A stretch of DNA of 38,861 nucleotides. It comes from an uncultured archaeon (lineage in GTDB: Archaea > Nanobdellota > Nanobdellia > Pacearchaeales > GW2011-AR1). The DNA lies in the NCBI GenBank assembly GCA_937143345.1, contig CAKZRD010000020.1, forward strand, positions 1 through 38,861, written 5' to 3'. The notes under the pieces were generated by a model. It did not search any database. It saw nothing but the letters and a program-made list of their open reading frames with translations, and was not told where the DNA came from. Positions 26,769-37,303 of the stretch are shown in pieces (position 1 is the stretch's first letter; each line of letters begins with the position of its first letter). Both the position numbers and the translations under genes were made by a program.

Positions 26769-27500
26769 ATGGAAAAGATAAAAAAAGGAGTAAAAGTTGA
26801 AATATTAACGACAAAAGAGAAAAAAAGGGTTGTTGGAATCGTTGAAGATGTTGGAGTAAAAAAAGAAGGAAAGCCTTTGATGGTACGCCTCAAAACTGGC
26901 GAGGTTGGAAGAATAAATAAGATTATCGAAGAAAAAAGAAAAACCGAAATTGAAGAGTTGATAAAAAAAGGAGAAAACCAAAGATTAGAGTTTAAATCTG
27001 AAGCACTTTGGAGTTTAAATTATAATGAAAAAGAAAGCAAATCTTACGAACTTCGCACTTACAAGCAAAAAGCTTCTAAAGTCATTATCGCGAAATCTCT
27101 TTCTGCCTTGATGAACAGCGAAGGAGGGATTTTAGTTATCGGAGTAAAAGAAAATAAAGAAATTTCTGGCTATGAAATCATAGGTATTGAAAAAGATTTA
27201 GAAAAATTAAAAGAACTAAAAAAAGATTTTTCTATCGACGGCTACAAAAGAATGATAATCGATGAAATAATTCGACCTTTCTTTCATTCAAAAATTTATA
27301 ATAAAATAAACTTTTTTCTTGAATTTAAATTTGAAGTATTTGAAGGAAAAACTGTTTGTTTAATAAAAGTTAATTCTTCCAATTTTCCTGTTTTTCTCTC
27401 TTTAGAAGGAAGAGAAATTTTCATGATTAGAACAGAAACACAAACACGGCAAATTCAAGATAAAGAGCTAGTTGATTATTGTATGGATAAGTTTAAGTGA
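26769..27500 (+). CDS. YwbE-like (DUF2196) domain fused to Schlafen/AlbA_2 domain
   Basis: N-term IKKGVKVEILTTKEKKRVVGIVEDV...VRLKTGEVGRINKII; then GENQRLEFKSEALWS...MNSEGGILVIGVKENKEI. Confidence 0.82.
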   Translation: MEKIKKGVKVEILTTKEKKRVVGIVEDVGVKKEGKPLMVRLKTGEVGRINKIIEEKRKTEIEELIKKGENQRLEFKSEALWSLNYNEKESKSYELRTYKQKASKVIIAKSLSALMNSEGGILVIGVKENKEISGYEIIGIEKDLEKLKELKKDFSIDGYKRMIIDEIIRPFFHSKIYNKINFFLEFKFEVFEGKTVCLIKVNSSNFPVFLSLEGREIFMIRTETQTRQIQDKELVDYCMDKFK

Positions 27501-27689: not shown

Positions 27690-28529
27690 TTAATCTTTCT
27701 TTTCCTTTTCCGTATCATTGATAATCTCTGTTTTTTCAAAATCTATTTCTTCCTTAATAATTTCAACATCTTCTTCAGGATATTTTTCCAACCTTATAAA
27801 AATTTCTTCAAAATGATTATATTGTTTAGTATAAATTTTTTCATGGTTATCTAATTGAAGTATTGGTAAAAATAATGCTTTTTTTTCTTCTTTTGTAGGA
27901 GCTAGATCAGAAAAAGTTATTTCTTCTTTTTTTAGTTCTTTAAAATGTTTTTCAATTTCTCTTATAATCAAATTTATTCTCTCTTTTATAGGAACTCTTT
28001 TATCTTTAGAAAGAAAAAGTTCGTAAATTTTTTCTGCTTGTTTTTTTCCTATAACCTTTCTTATTCTTCTCGTTTCTGTTTCTATTGCTTTATTTAATGA
28101 TAGCATCAATTCTTCTAAAGTTACTTTTCTTTGTCTTGGTAATGGTGTTCTTGGAAAAAGAAGAGGGATTTCTTCATCAAACACTTCTAATTTTGGAATA
28201 ACTTTTTTTTCTTCTTTTTTTCCATAAATAATTTCATCTATTTCCTTTAAGAAAACATCATTTAAAATTTCAGATTTCATTTTTAAGAGGATAGCACAAG
28301 CAAGCAACATTTTAGATGAAACAAAAAAATTTGCTTCTTCCATTTTTTTTATAACTTCTAAATATTTGTCTGCCAATAGAGAAATATCTATATCCCAAGG
28401 ATCTAATCTTTCAGTATTTATTAAATCATAGATAAGAGATTGCCAACTAATTTCTTCTTTTGTTATTATATCATAAAATTGCTCAGAACCTATTTTTGAC
28501 TCTTCTTCCATTAAGTTTGATTGTTTCAA
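27690..28529 (-). CDS. scpA: segregation and condensation protein ScpA (kleisin)
   Basis: LDPWDIDISLLADKYLEVIKKMEEANFFVSSKMLLACAILLKMKSE. Confidence 0.92.
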   Translation of the reverse strand: MKQSNLMEEESKIGSEQFYDIITKEEISWQSLIYDLINTERLDPWDIDISLLADKYLEVIKKMEEANFFVSSKMLLACAILLKMKSEILNDVFLKEIDEIIYGKKEEKKVIPKLEVFDEEIPLLFPRTPLPRQRKVTLEELMLSLNKAIETETRRIRKVIGKKQAEKIYELFLSKDKRVPIKERINLIIREIEKHFKELKKEEITFSDLAPTKEEKKALFLPILQLDNHEKIYTKQYNHFEEIFIRLEKYPEEDVEIIKEEIDFEKTEIINDTEKEKKD

Positions 28530-28588: not shown

Positions 28589-29623
28589 ATGGAAGAAAAA
28601 GAGAAGATATTTCTTGAATTTTTAAAGAAAATATCTCCTGGAACTCATTTAAGAACTGTTATTGAAGATATTATTCGTTCAGGTAGAGGGGCTTTAATTG
28701 TTTTAGATACACCAAAATTAACAGAAATTACAGAAGGAGGATTTAGAGTTAATTGTAGATTCACTCCACATAGATTGTTTGAACTATGTAAAATGGATGG
28801 TGCTGTTATTATCTCTTCCGATATGAAAAGAATATTTTATGCAAATGTTTTATTAGTTCCACCGACTTCTGTAACATCAAATGAAACAGGAACAAGACAT
28901 AAAGCGGCAGAGAAAACAGCAAAATATGCAGAGACTTTTGTTTTATCAATATCTGAAAGAAGAAAAAAAACAACAATTTATTATTGTGATTTGAAGTATA
29001 GTTTAAGAAGTTTAGATGATTTGTTAAAAATTCTTTCTACTAATTTACAAATAATTGAAAAACAAAGAGAACAATTCAATGAACTCTGGTCTAGATTAAA
29101 TATTTTAGAAATTTCAGGACTTGTTTCAGTGAGTGATGTTTGTAAACTCTTACAAAAAAGTCAAGCTATAATAAAGATATCCTCATTGATAAGAAGAGAT
29201 CTTATTGAAATAGGAAAAGAAGGCAGTGTAATAAATCTAAGATTTAGGGAACTTACAAAAAATGTTGAAAAAATAGAAGAAGAAATATTAAGAGATTATT
29301 CCCAAAAAAATTTAAAAACAGTTAAAAAAATTCTTAAAGGTTTAACTTTTGATGGACTTTCAGAGGTAAGCACTATAGCAAGGTTAGTTTTTGATTTGGA
29401 TTTGGATGAACAAATAAAGCCGAAGGGCTATAGATTTTTGGAAAATTGCGGACTAACAAAAAAAGAAATCGCTAGTGTAATATCTAACTTAAACACGCTT
29501 GATAATATTATTAATGCAGAACAACAAACTTTAGAAAATTTGTTGAAGGCGAGAGCTTCTCAAATAAAAGAAAATATTCTTAAATTAAGAGAAGAAATAT
29601 TAGAAGGAAAGAAAACTATATGA
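28589..29623 (+). CDS. disA: DisA-like diadenylate cyclase (DAC + linker + C-terminal HhH-like region)
   Basis: GRGALIVLDTPKL...EGGFRVNCRFTPHRLFELCKMDGAVIISSDMKRIFYANVLLVP...ETGTRHKAAEKTA; C-term DEQIKPKGYRFLENCGLTKKEI. Confidence 0.92.
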   Translation: MEEKEKIFLEFLKKISPGTHLRTVIEDIIRSGRGALIVLDTPKLTEITEGGFRVNCRFTPHRLFELCKMDGAVIISSDMKRIFYANVLLVPPTSVTSNETGTRHKAAEKTAKYAETFVLSISERRKKTTIYYCDLKYSLRSLDDLLKILSTNLQIIEKQREQFNELWSRLNILEISGLVSVSDVCKLLQKSQAIIKISSLIRRDLIEIGKEGSVINLRFRELTKNVEKIEEEILRDYSQKNLKTVKKILKGLTFDGLSEVSTIARLVFDLDLDEQIKPKGYRFLENCGLTKKEIASVISNLNTLDNIINAEQQTLENLLKARASQIKENILKLREEILEGKKTI

Positions 29624-30639
29624 TAAGCAAAGATAGATTAAAAAAATTAAAAGAAATTTTACTTTTTTCTAAAAACCCGGTCTTTCTTTTTGATAATGAT
29701 CCAGACGGTATTTGTTCTACTTCTATTTTGATAAGAAATATTGGTAAAGGAAATGCTTTTGTTTTAAAATCAATAGAAAAAATAAGTGAAAATCTCTCAA
29801 AAAAAATATTTTCTGTTTATCCTAGTGAAATATTTATAATCGACAAACCAATTCGAGATCTGAACTTTATAAAAAAAACAAAAGAAAAAAATGTCCCTTT
29901 AATTTATATAGACCATCATGAACAAAAAGAAAGCAACTATTGTGTTTATTTTAACAGTTATCCCTCTTCCGAACCTGTAAGTTTCATAACACAAAAAATA
30001 TTTGATTCAAAAGAAACAAGATTTCTTTCTTTAATGGGTTGTATTTCAGATTCTTTTTTACCTGATTTTTACGAAGAAGAAAAAAATAAATTCCCTGAAC
30101 TTTTTTTAGAAACAAAAGATGCTTTTGAAATATTTTATAAAAGCGATTTTGGAAAAGCTATTCAAATAATTTCTCTCTCATTGATGAATAACGACAAAGT
30201 AATAGAAAAAATTTTAGATTATTTAAAAAAAATAAACTCTCCTTACGAGATTTTAATTGAAAATGAAAAAAACAGATTTATGCACGAAAGGTATAATGAA
30301 ATGATAATGTTTATTGAAAAAAATATTGAAAAAACAAAAGAATTTGACGAACTTATTTTTTTAGAGTTTTCTGGAAAATATAGTTTAGTCTCCGAGTTGG
30401 CAAACAGATTAAAATTTATGAGAAAAAACAAGTTTATTGTTGTTTGTTATAAAAAAGAAGACTCTATAAATATTTCATTGAGGGGGAAAAGGTCTAAAAA
30501 AATTGTGCAAAAAGTTTTGGGCGATATTGAAAACTCATTTGGTGGAGGACATGAGATGGCCTGCGGATTAAGAATTCCATCAAGCGAATATGACAAATTT
30601 AAAAAGATAATATCAGAAATCTTTTTTGTTGAAATTTAA
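29620..30639 (+). CDS. DHH/DHHA1 family phosphodiesterase, ATGA-coupled to disA
   Basis: FDNDPDGICSTS, YIDHHEQK, MGCISDSF, FGGGHEMACGLRI. Confidence 0.87.
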   Translation: MISKDRLKKLKEILLFSKNPVFLFDNDPDGICSTSILIRNIGKGNAFVLKSIEKISENLSKKIFSVYPSEIFIIDKPIRDLNFIKKTKEKNVPLIYIDHHEQKESNYCVYFNSYPSSEPVSFITQKIFDSKETRFLSLMGCISDSFLPDFYEEEKNKFPELFLETKDAFEIFYKSDFGKAIQIISLSLMNNDKVIEKILDYLKKINSPYEILIENEKNRFMHERYNEMIMFIEKNIEKTKEFDELIFLEFSGKYSLVSELANRLKFMRKNKFIVVCYKKEDSINISLRGKRSKKIVQKVLGDIENSFGGGHEMACGLRIPSSEYDKFKKIISEIFFVEI

Positions 30640-33751: not shown

Positions 33752-36616
33752 TTAGAATTTTTGACTAACTATTTTTGAAATTCCTTCTTGCATACTCACT
33801 CCATATAATACTGGCGCATGTTCTATTAGAACATCATTATGTGTTACTATTATATACTGGCCTGAGACCATGTATCTCTTAATTAAAGAAGCTAAAAGTT
33901 CTGAGTTGTGTTTGTCTAATGGTGCGTCTATTTCATCAAAAATATAAAAACAATAGGGTTTATATTCTTGTATAGCAAAAATTAAAGAAAGAGCAACGAG
34001 TGCTTTTTCTCCACCTGACAATGAAGAAATATCAAAATATTTTCCTTTTGCTACTTTTAAGATTATTTCCAAACCTCCGGCAAAAGGATCTTCCATGTTT
34101 TCAAGTTCTAAAAAAATCTCTCCTTTTCTACTTAATTGCGAAAAATTTCTTGCGAAAAGAGAATTAATCGCTTCCAAGGTCTTTAAAAAAGTTTTTCTTT
34201 TTTTCTTGTCTATCTCACTAATTACTTCTAAAATTTTTTCTTTTTCTTTTAAGATGATGTCAACTTTTGCCTGTATTTCATTGCAAGCAAACTTAATGTT
34301 ATCATAAACTTCAATAGCTTTCATATTAATACTACCAAAATTCCTAAGTTTTTCTTGAAGTAAAAAAAGATTTTTTCCCAAAGATTCTTTCGAACCTTGT
34401 ATTAACTCAACTTCCTTGAATAAAGAAAATTCTTCTCTTAGAGTTTCCAATTTTGCATTTATTTCTGCTTCTTTGAGTTTAAAAGAATTATTTTTATCCT
34501 CGATATTTCTTATTTCGTTCTGTAATCCTATTAAACTTGTTTCAAATTCTTTTTGCTTATCTGCGATTTTGTTTCTCTCTAAATATAATGAATTGAATCT
34601 TTCATAAACTTCTCTTTCTTTTTCTTCTTTTTTTAACAATTCCTTTTCTCTTTCTTTTATTTTTTCAATAATCTGAGAAAGAAGAGCTTCGCTTTCTTGA
34701 TCATCTTTATCAATCGAAGATATTTCTACTTTTATTCTTTCTATATCCTTTCTTTTGTCTATCAAATTTATATCTAAACCCTCTTCTTCAAAAGACAACT
34801 CTTTCAATTGTAAGTTTACTTCGTTATATTTTTCTTCTATTCCTTCGAGATTTTTTAAGGAAAAAAGAGTTTTTGAAATATTTTTATTTAATTCTTCTAT
34901 TTGCTTTTTTAAGTCTTCGCTTTCTAAAAAAAGAATTTTGATTTTTTCTTCTTTTTCCTCAGCATAAATAATTTTGCTTTTCTCAATTTCCACTTCTCTT
35001 AAAATCTTTTGTTTTTCTTCTAGTTTGATTTTACATTCTTGAAGAATCTTTTGCAATTCTTTTTTTAAAATGGAATTTTCATTTAGTTTATTTTCTGAAA
35101 AAGAAATTTTTTGTTTCGCTTCATTAATAACATTTAGTTTATGTTCTTCTGTTATTTTGCTTTTACATAAAGGGCAAATTTCTAAGGAGGAAAGATTTTT
35201 TAATATTTTATCTTCTTCTTGAACCATTTTTTCTAAAACAGCGTTTTCTTTTTCTATAGAAAGTATCCTTTTTTCTGTTTCAATAATCTCATTTTTAATT
35301 TGAAAGAGAGAGAGCTCTATTTCTTTTTTTAATTTTTCACAATCGTGCTTGTTTTTGCAAAACTTTAATTCTAAAAAAATTTTATTTAAAGATTGATCAA
35401 TAACTTTAAGTTCTTGTTCTGTTTGAAATAAAAGTCTTAATTTTTCCTCCTTTTTACTTTCTAATAAAGAAATTTGGTTTTTTGTTAAGTAAAACTCTCT
35501 TCTTTTTTTTTCTAATAAGGATAAATTATCTTCAAGCTCTTTCTTTTTCTCTCTTTTATTTTTTATTTGAGGAGATCTCTCCATAGATAGAGAAATCTCT
35601 TTTTCTAAATTTTCTATTCTATTTTTTAAATTGAGAACTTTTATTTTATTTTGTTTTATCCTATTTTCATAATTCTCTCTTCTTACATTCAAACCTGCAA
35701 GCTCTGCTTTTAAATCAGAAATTTCTTTGTATAATAAATCTTGTTCCCCGCTGGTTTTCTCCTCTATCTCTTTAGTTATATTTTTTATTTTTTCTTCACA
35801 GATGGAAATTTCAATTTTTATTTGATTATATTTTTCCTTTAAGGAAGCAATTTTCTTATTATTTTTTTCTTTTTCTTCTTCTAAAAAAAGAATTTCTTTT
35901 TCTTTTTCAGAGATTTCTTTAAAGAGAATCGTTGCCTTATGTTTTTTTATATTTTCTTCTATTCTCTTAAATTCTAAGGCGTTTTTTCTTTCTTCTTCGA
36001 GATTTTTTAAATAATTTAATTTTTCTTTTAAAATAGTTGTTGTTTCTTTTAATTTTTCTTCTGTTTTTTCTAACTCTTTCAGAGATTTTTCTTTTCTTAA
36101 CTCATAAAAAGAAATTCCTGCAACCTCCTCAATAATTTTTCTTCTTTCTTCAGAAGATATTTTTATTAACGAACCTATTTCTCCTTGAAGCACAATATTA
36201 AAACCATCTGGATCTATCCCTGCCTTGGCTAGTATTTCAATTATTTCTTGACGGGTTTTTGTTTCGTCGTTTAATTTATATATAGAAACCCCATTTCTTT
36301 TTACAATCCTCTTTATTGATACTTCTTTTTTATCTGCTAAAAAAACATTTTCTTTATCTTCAAATACAATTTCTACTAAAGCTTCGTTTGCAGGTTTGTA
36401 ATATTTATTACCGCTAAAAAGAAAACTTTCAATTTTTTCAGCTCTCATAGATTTTTTACTCATTCTACCTAAAGCAAAACAAATAGCATCGGTAATATTG
36501 CTTTTTCCTGAACCGTTTGGTCCCACAATAACATTCATAGAATTTTCTAAAATAATTTCAGTTCTTCTCGCAAAACTTTTAAAACCTTGTAACACCAACT
36601 TTTTTATATAAACCAT
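33752..36616 (-). CDS. smc: SMC-family chromosome segregation ATPase with Rad50-type zinc hook in place of hinge
   Basis: SMC heads: GPNGSGKSNITDAICFALG, FNIVLQGEI, LSGGEKALVALSLIFAIQ, FYIFDEIDAPLD; central LEICPLCKSKITEEHK at residues 479-494 flanked by coiled coils. Confidence 0.93.
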   Translation of the reverse strand: MVYIKKLVLQGFKSFARRTEIILENSMNVIVGPNGSGKSNITDAICFALGRMSKKSMRAEKIESFLFSGNKYYKPANEALVEIVFEDKENVFLADKKEVSIKRIVKRNGVSIYKLNDETKTRQEIIEILAKAGIDPDGFNIVLQGEIGSLIKISSEERRKIIEEVAGISFYELRKEKSLKELEKTEEKLKETTTILKEKLNYLKNLEEERKNALEFKRIEENIKKHKATILFKEISEKEKEILFLEEEKEKNNKKIASLKEKYNQIKIEISICEEKIKNITKEIEEKTSGEQDLLYKEISDLKAELAGLNVRRENYENRIKQNKIKVLNLKNRIENLEKEISLSMERSPQIKNKREKKKELEDNLSLLEKKRREFYLTKNQISLLESKKEEKLRLLFQTEQELKVIDQSLNKIFLELKFCKNKHDCEKLKKEIELSLFQIKNEIIETEKRILSIEKENAVLEKMVQEEDKILKNLSSLEICPLCKSKITEEHKLNVINEAKQKISFSENKLNENSILKKELQKILQECKIKLEEKQKILREVEIEKSKIIYAEEKEEKIKILFLESEDLKKQIEELNKNISKTLFSLKNLEGIEEKYNEVNLQLKELSFEEEGLDINLIDKRKDIERIKVEISSIDKDDQESEALLSQIIEKIKEREKELLKKEEKEREVYERFNSLYLERNKIADKQKEFETSLIGLQNEIRNIEDKNNSFKLKEAEINAKLETLREEFSLFKEVELIQGSKESLGKNLFLLQEKLRNFGSINMKAIEVYDNIKFACNEIQAKVDIILKEKEKILEVISEIDKKKRKTFLKTLEAINSLFARNFSQLSRKGEIFLELENMEDPFAGGLEIILKVAKGKYFDISSLSGGEKALVALSLIFAIQEYKPYCFYIFDEIDAPLDKHNSELLASLIKRYMVSGQYIIVTHNDVLIEHAPVLYGVSMQEGISKIVSQKF

Positions 36617-36652: not shown

Positions 36653-37303
36653 TTAAAATAATTTTTTTTGTTTTTCATCTGATAATCTTTTTATACTTTC
36701 CCAAGAAAACCTGATAATTTCTTTAAACTTATCGTCTTTAAAATTATTTTTTATAAAACTAATTGTTTTAGGGTCGCTTGGATAACCGGAACCAAAATCC
36801 TTCTTAAAATCTTTTTTTAACTTTTTAATCTCTTCTTCTCTCTTTTCTTTTGCAAGAATGGAAGCAGCAGAAACAACTGGAAAATTAATATCTGCTTTAT
36901 GCTCTATAAAAAGCTCCATGTCTTTTCTTAATAACAAAGATTTTAAAAGAAAACCCCATTTAATTTTATTATTTGAAGGACAGTCGACAAATACTTTAAT
37001 TTTCTCTTTTTTTTCTAGAGATAATTTATTTATAATAACGGCCATCCTTTCCGCTTCTAAAGTGTTAAGATTCGGTGAAGAATCTATTTCTCTTGGAGAG
37101 ATAACTTGGAGAAAATATTCAACTTCTTTTTCCAAAATTTCCTTTATTCTTTCTCTCGCACTTGAAAAAAGTTTTTTTGAATCCTTGACACCTATCTTTT
37201 TTAATAGATTTTCTTTTTCTTCATTTATTAAAACCCCTGCTAATACCATTGGTCCTATCACCGGTCCTCTTCCAGCATCATCCACTCCTAAAAGATAAAC
37301 CAT
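36653..37303 (-). CDS. rnhB: ribonuclease HII
   Basis: GVDDAGRGPVIGPMVLAGVLI; VFVDCPSN; HKADINFPVVSAASILAKEKRE. Confidence 0.94.
   Translation of the reverse strand: MVYLLGVDDAGRGPVIGPMVLAGVLINEEKENLLKKIGVKDSKKLFSSARERIKEILEKEVEYFLQVISPREIDSSPNLNTLEAERMAVIINKLSLEKKEKIKVFVDCPSNNKIKWGFLLKSLLLRKDMELFIEHKADINFPVVSAASILAKEKREEEIKKLKKDFKKDFGSGYPSDPKTISFIKNNFKDDKFKEIIRFSWESIKRLSDEKQKKLF

Follow-up and report, generated by a model that had tools for sequence, protein, structure and literature searches.

A hinge-less archaeal SMC protein with a Rad50-type zinc-hook motif, likely the sole condensin of a Pacearchaeota-type archaeon

An open reading frame in the window (the whole 38,861-nucleotide stretch of DNA analyzed here, contig CAKZRD010000020.1 of an uncultured archaeon) encodes a 954-aa protein with SMC heads and a zinc-hook motif in place of the hinge. 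The protein is likely the sole chromosomal SMC (condensin) of this Pacearchaeota-type archaeon, dimerized through zinc and working with the kleisin ScpA; zinc binding, dimerization, and complex formation are inferred, and we hold this reading to be likely because Mre11-Rad50 is encoded separately and ScpA and ScpB are conserved. The hinge is generally treated as a defining part of the SMC motor, with roles in dimerization, in DNA binding, and as an entry gate. Our search of the open-access literature (subscription journals and preprints were outside our reach) turned up no chromosomal SMC that naturally bears a zinc hook, and within that literature the exchange of hinge for hook was apparently known before only from a laboratory chimera, while here it is likely to extend across a whole order of very small archaea, the Pacearchaeota. 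The gene and its parts are as follows.

33752..36616, minus strand: smc gene, ATG start, 954 aa, with SMC-type heads and a zinc hook at the apex replacing the hinge (Pfam, NCBIfam, and PDB matches)
36107..36616, minus strand: N-terminal head half, residues ~1-170, with Walker A and Q-loop (PDB match to the Pyrococcus Smc head, 5xei/4i99)
36500-36523, minus strand: Walker A GPNGSGKS, residues 32-39 (invariant P-loop residues)
35177..36106, minus strand: N-terminal coiled-coil arm, residues ~171-480 (spacing between Walker A and the first Cys of the hook)
35141..35176, minus strand: zinc-hook apex, C481-P-L-C484...H492 (invariant Cys, PF04423 score, AF2 fold)
35165-35176, minus strand: CPLC, residues 481-484
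34247..35164, minus strand: C-terminal coiled-coil arm, residues ~485-790 (distance from the first hook Cys to the ABC signature)
33752..34246, minus strand: C-terminal head half (PDB match to the Pyrococcus Smc C-head, residues 803-952)
34004-34021, minus strand: ABC signature LSGGEK
33926-33949, minus strand: Walker B FYIFDEID

The criterion of SMC-type N- and C-terminal head halves with an ABC signature was met by Pfam, NCBIfam, PDB, and tree evidence. Pfam SMC_N matched at 193.5 bits (cut-off 40), TIGR02169 (SMC_prok_A) ranked first among the NCBIfam models, in two stretches of which the first covers profile positions 1 to 461, and the closest solved structures were Pyrococcus Smc heads (E 2.4e-101), covering residues 1-309 and 708-951. 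The equivalog cut-offs for SMC were not reached (501.3 versus 729.4 bits for TIGR02169 and 474.7 versus 567.35 bits for TIGR02168), and the hinge segment of these two models has no counterpart in the protein. Furthermore, no SMC_hinge was found at E ≤ 10 in the protein (Pfam) or anywhere in its genome (profile search); the absence from this genome, which is 89.7% complete, rests on profile searches.

The placement of the heads was examined in two trees, both of which left out ASRP rows. In a quick tree including Rad50, the latter was split off by a 100% branch and the hinge-less SMCs of the order formed one clade (SH-aLRT 99). A more careful tree of SMCs alone recovered the same clade with an ultrafast bootstrap of 100 and SH-aLRT of 99, with the hinge SMCs on the opposite side. 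The heads of all hinge-less members therefore sit inside SMC, apart from Rad50, and from the single clade we infer that the hinge was lost once, an event that would have occurred in the ancestor of the order.

The apex carries a Rad50-type hook motif, CPxC...H, as shown by sequence; the hook criterion is met at that level and not by chemistry, and zinc binding is inferred. When the 160-aa apex was searched in isolation, PF04423 (Rad50_zn_hook) scored 26.4 bits (cut-off 24.3), and no PF04423 match was returned when the whole 954-aa protein was scanned. Across 54 aligned apex segments (the window protein and relatives, 15 to 38% identical to the window's), PF04423 was detected at E ≤ 1 in 48, C481 and C484 were the sole invariant columns, P482 and H492 were kept at ≥90%, and the surrounding residues varied freely. 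A 40-column profile built only from 73 Rad50 hooks gave 39.1 bits on the window protein. It matched each of the 50 hook SMCs tested across the CxxC, at 12 to 46 bits, and did not exceed 1.6 bits on the controls (SMCs with a hinge, SMCs without a hook, and shuffled sequences). Since these cysteines are the only invariant columns and the Rad50-only profile separates hook SMCs from controls, the CxxC is more than a chance occurrence. When PDB sequences were searched with the apex profile, Rad50 hooks came out on top (1L8D from P. furiosus, 9.4e-10; 6ZFF, 1e-9). AlphaFold2 predicted two long helices with CPLC in the connecting tip loop (mean pLDDT 92.9), and Foldseek of this model placed Rad50 hook chains at ranks 1 to 3 with weak E-values (best 3e-3); weak Foldseek E-values are usual for coiled coils. 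The modeling covered monomers only, and a Cys4 zinc site shared between two chains is inferred, with no metal or dimer data.

We also considered whether the homology with Rad50 extends beyond the motif, and this was rejected. The 160-column apex profile gave 40 to 67 bits on the Rad50 proteins of the order, but once the hook motif was cut out the coiled-coil flanks carried no Rad50-specific signal and scored no better on Rad50 than on the arms of hinge SMCs. Homology is therefore claimed for the hook tip only (~20 to 40 residues), and convergence is not excluded.

These results bear on most of what the initial annotation had proposed. Its reading frame, 954-aa length, and CPLC at residues 481-484 held exactly. 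The SMC-like nature of both head halves was upheld by SMC_N, TIGR02169, and the Pyrococcus Smc structures, and the lack of a hinge by the PF06470 search, which gave no SMC_hinge in protein or genome. The Rad50-type hook held by sequence, through the PF04423 score of the apex alone, and the refuting case it had named, heads placed inside Rad50, did not arise, as the head phylogeny put them in SMC (without ASRP rows).

Homologues of the protein were present in 133 of 138 genomes of the window's family and in 174/180 genomes of the order, and the named relatives are Pacearchaeota and Nanoarchaeota MAGs. SMC_hinge above cut-off was found in none of the 138 family genomes and in 0/180 genomes of the order, among them 20 with completeness of ≥90%. 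Across the class, SMC_hinge was present in 200 of the 280 genomes sampled, all listed ones from families outside the order. Of the full-length hook-type sequences inspected in the main set, all 47 that were non-identical carry the CxxC, which was also found in 7 sequences from other families of the order and in 20 further genomes. The genomes examined are incomplete MAGs. One weak SMC_hinge match in the family (genome G090, 19.4 bits, below cut-off) was rejected; it lies in an unrelated 316-aa frame, which we take to be a YvcK/CofD-like protein.

Two side observations were made on SMCs in the class. Inserts of ~500 to 530 aa interrupt the P-loop directly behind GKS in both hook and hinge types; those read, in L053 (6324-10802), L157 (182-4723), and L168 (a hinge-type SMC), are intein-like and end in HN before SN, and long open frames of ~1490 to 1520 aa occur in G015, G019, G022, G024, G081, G091, and G118, where only the frame length was seen. 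In addition, nine genomes of class family f10 (G142, G154, G163, G170, G177, G185, G190, G196, and G201), two of them single contigs with 94 to 95% completeness, had neither SMC_hinge nor a homologue of the 954-aa SMC, and it is possible that this family has lost SMC altogether.

Within the order, hinge and CxxC are both missing from eight SMCs of ~780 to 810 aa, which come from the families coded f4 and f75 and from part of f3.

L060, L062, L063, L064, L154, L155, L159, L161: hook-less, hinge-less SMCs from at least three sub-lineages

The hook is thus not indispensable across the order, being absent in three sub-lineages. ScpA and ScpB are still encoded in most genomes with a hook-less SMC. 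For the hook-less apex, AF2 predicted four helices without a hinge-like fold (pTM 0.47), and Foldseek returned mainly SMC and other coiled coils, with no dimer module identified. These sub-lineages resemble the hinge-less SMC of marine Actinobacteria (PMC12153180), which has in common with the window protein its SMC heads, the loss of the hinge, and not being in tandem with a regular SMC. CXXC is stated to be absent from the actinobacterial protein (PMC12153180), unlike that of the window.

On the head tree, the hook/no-hook label required 3 changes on starred branches and hook-less f75 branched first; with this branching, step counts do not distinguish a gain of the hook after loss of the hinge from a gain of the hook followed by its loss. 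An 89-column tree of the hook module was unresolved (6/75 branches starred), the SMC hooks needing 2 changes, and it did not identify the donor; a single origin of the hook is neither shown nor ruled out. The motif, which at least three sub-lineages lack, likely derives from a hook of Rad50 or of an ASRP, without convergence on the same tip being excluded. Either domains were exchanged between the branches of SMC and Rad50, or the two converged in this way.

The arms of the hook SMCs were nearly fixed in length: in 43 sequences, 445 to 449 residues separate Walker A from the first Cys of the hook, and in 39 of these 43 another 386 to 387 lie between that Cys and the ABC signature. The arms of the order's Rad50 are shorter (317 to 321 residues from Walker A to the hook Cys). 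In B. subtilis, whether Smc functions varies with the length of its arms in a patterned manner, also with a Rad50 hook (PMC5344682), and the lengths seen here agree with a constraint of this kind.

The initial annotation had pointed to a ScpA encoded 5 kb away as the probable partner.

27690..28529, minus strand: ScpA-type kleisin, 279 aa, probable partner, 5.2 kb from smc (PF02616, 37.4 bits, cut-off 24.6)

Its presence was confirmed, and ScpA proved conserved in the order (120 of 132 genomes). ScpB was found in 87/91 order genomes, in the window's own genome on contig C26. Since archaeal ScpB may not belong to the complex (PMC7055376), we claim only ScpA as a partner; the partnership is likely, inferred from gene presence without binding data. 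A hinge-bearing SMC elsewhere in the genome, which the initial annotation had named as an alternative partner of ScpA, was not found. The zinc-mediated dimer interface it proposed has support from sequence only, dimerization itself being inferred. The order-wide nature of the trait, the coexisting Rad50 with its own hook, and the three sub-lineages with neither hinge nor hook go beyond what it had claimed.

The window's own genome encodes a separate Rad50 (G000:C28:5040-7094) of 689 aa, with hook CPTC, adjoining Mre11, and a Rad50 homologue was present in 54 of 55 order genomes. With a separate Mre11-Rad50 in the same genome and a Rad50 homologue in nearly all order genomes examined, the 954-aa SMC does not simply stand in for Rad50. 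As a side observation, Rad50 is short throughout the order (~680 to 720 aa). Both hooks were readable in 34 genomes, and in none of these did SMC and Rad50 agree at once in the variable position between the cysteines and in the position that follows the second; cross-genome pairing gave a chance expectation of 0.9, so that this result lacks statistical significance. Within the main family, SMC hooks read CP[LVI]C[KQ] and Rad50 hooks mostly CPTC[LFYM], and seven genomes from lineages without the SMC hook, or related to these, have a Rad50 hook of CPVCK, CPLCK, or CPECG. The differing hooks are no more than suggestive of a possible insulation between the two proteins.

In the mechanism we propose, two protomers would join apex to apex, with four Cys on one zinc ion as in Rad50, ATP would engage the heads, and ScpA would bridge them; the outcome would be an SMC-kleisin ring or rod of the usual kind, which organizes DNA and may form DNA loops. 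This inferred mechanism draws on two chimeras: B. subtilis Smc engineered with the P. furiosus Rad50 hook supports normal growth (PMC5344682), and, in reverse, a Rad50 given the MukB hinge is functional in fission yeast (PMC6969161). Against this explanation stand the lack of zinc, dimer, or protein contact data and the missing hook in three sub-lineages. A bolder reading, toward which the balance tips only slightly, is that the only condensin of the whole order is held by a hook, that at least three sub-lineages do without both hinge and hook while keeping ScpA/ScpB, and that the differences from the Rad50 hooks may prevent pairing.

Among the alternatives, the one that survives best, although unlikely, is that the CxxC acts only locally, as a zinc knuckle or a redox thiol pair shaping the hairpin tip, with dimerization through arms or heads. 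In its favor, the three sub-lineages without the motif keep ScpA/ScpB, so that apex dimerization is otherwise possible, and one CxxC holds only half a zinc site. However, two tip Cys per chain need a second chain for a Cys4 site, as in Rad50, and no other zinc-finger model fits the motif, P482 and H492 included, as well as that of the Rad50 hook. A role as an additional Rad50 that repairs breaks together with Mre11 is very unlikely: the hook motif is held in common and the Rad50 model NF003034 gave 88.9 bits, but mostly over coiled coil and far under its cut-off of 700, the heads group with SMC, and the Rad50 adjoining Mre11 is a separate protein with homologues in 54 of 55 order genomes. Membership of the ASRP (ClsN/Sph) family, SMC-related proteins with a hook that are not the chromosomal SMC, is also very unlikely. 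ASRPs have hooks too (PMC9389158) and apex members match the ASRP model, but NF045487 gave only 73.7 bits on the 954-aa protein (cut-off 300) against 501 for the SMC model, the heads group with the hinge SMCs of the class (in trees without ASRP rows), and the protein occupies the place of the only SMC. Finally, pairing of the SMC hook with the same cell's Rad50 hook into mixed SMC-Rad50 assemblies is suggested by the coexistence of both hooks with conserved CPxC...H/Y motifs, but is very unlikely given the 0/34 identity (not significant) and main-family motifs that point, if anywhere, to insulation.

Compared to known systems, the zinc-dimerized condensin favored here has in common with canonical SMCs (TIGR02168/TIGR02169; Smc-ScpAB) the head halves, signature, Walker B, long arms, and ScpA and ScpB in the genome, and its heads fall phylogenetically inside this group, whereas canonical members are ~1100 to 1170 aa with SMC_hinge and the window protein, at 954 aa with a CPxC hook, stays below the equivalog cut-offs. 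With the Rad50/SbcC zinc hook (PF04423; 1L8D, 6ZFF, 5GOX) it has in common CPxC...H at the tip of an antiparallel coiled coil, and it differs by its SMC heads, longer arms, and lack of an Mre11 neighbor. ASRP/coalescin ClsN/Sph (PMC9389158) are likewise archaeal SMC-superfamily ATPases with a zinc hook, but form a separate family with its own heads, while the protein described here is far under the ASRP cut-off and is its genome's chromosomal SMC. The engineered B. subtilis Smc(Zh) (Tuned SMC Arms, 2017, PMC5344682) also has SMC heads and arms with a Rad50 hook replacing the hinge; it is laboratory-made, and the window protein is a natural, order-wide version. The B. subtilis study claimed that the fold of the dimerization domain is irrelevant (PMC5344682), and a natural SMC with a hook structurally unrelated to the hinge it replaced agrees with this. 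Together with the lineages lacking both, the natural exchange indicates what the motor requires, namely heads, a kleisin, and arms that hardly vary in length, and the order supplies natural proteins for testing models with an active role for the hinge.

A few neighbors in the window were also noted. Upstream of smc lies RNase HII (36653-37303, minus strand), which is on the same strand in many relatives and forms a conserved neighborhood. A Schlafen AlbA_2 domain protein with a weakly DUF2196-like N-terminus is encoded at 26769-27500, plus strand. Beside ScpA, at 28589-30639 (plus strand), a DisA-type diadenylate cyclase gene (DAC and DisA-linker) adjoins a DHH/DHHA1 phosphodiesterase-like gene, a pair that could possibly make and break c-di-AMP.
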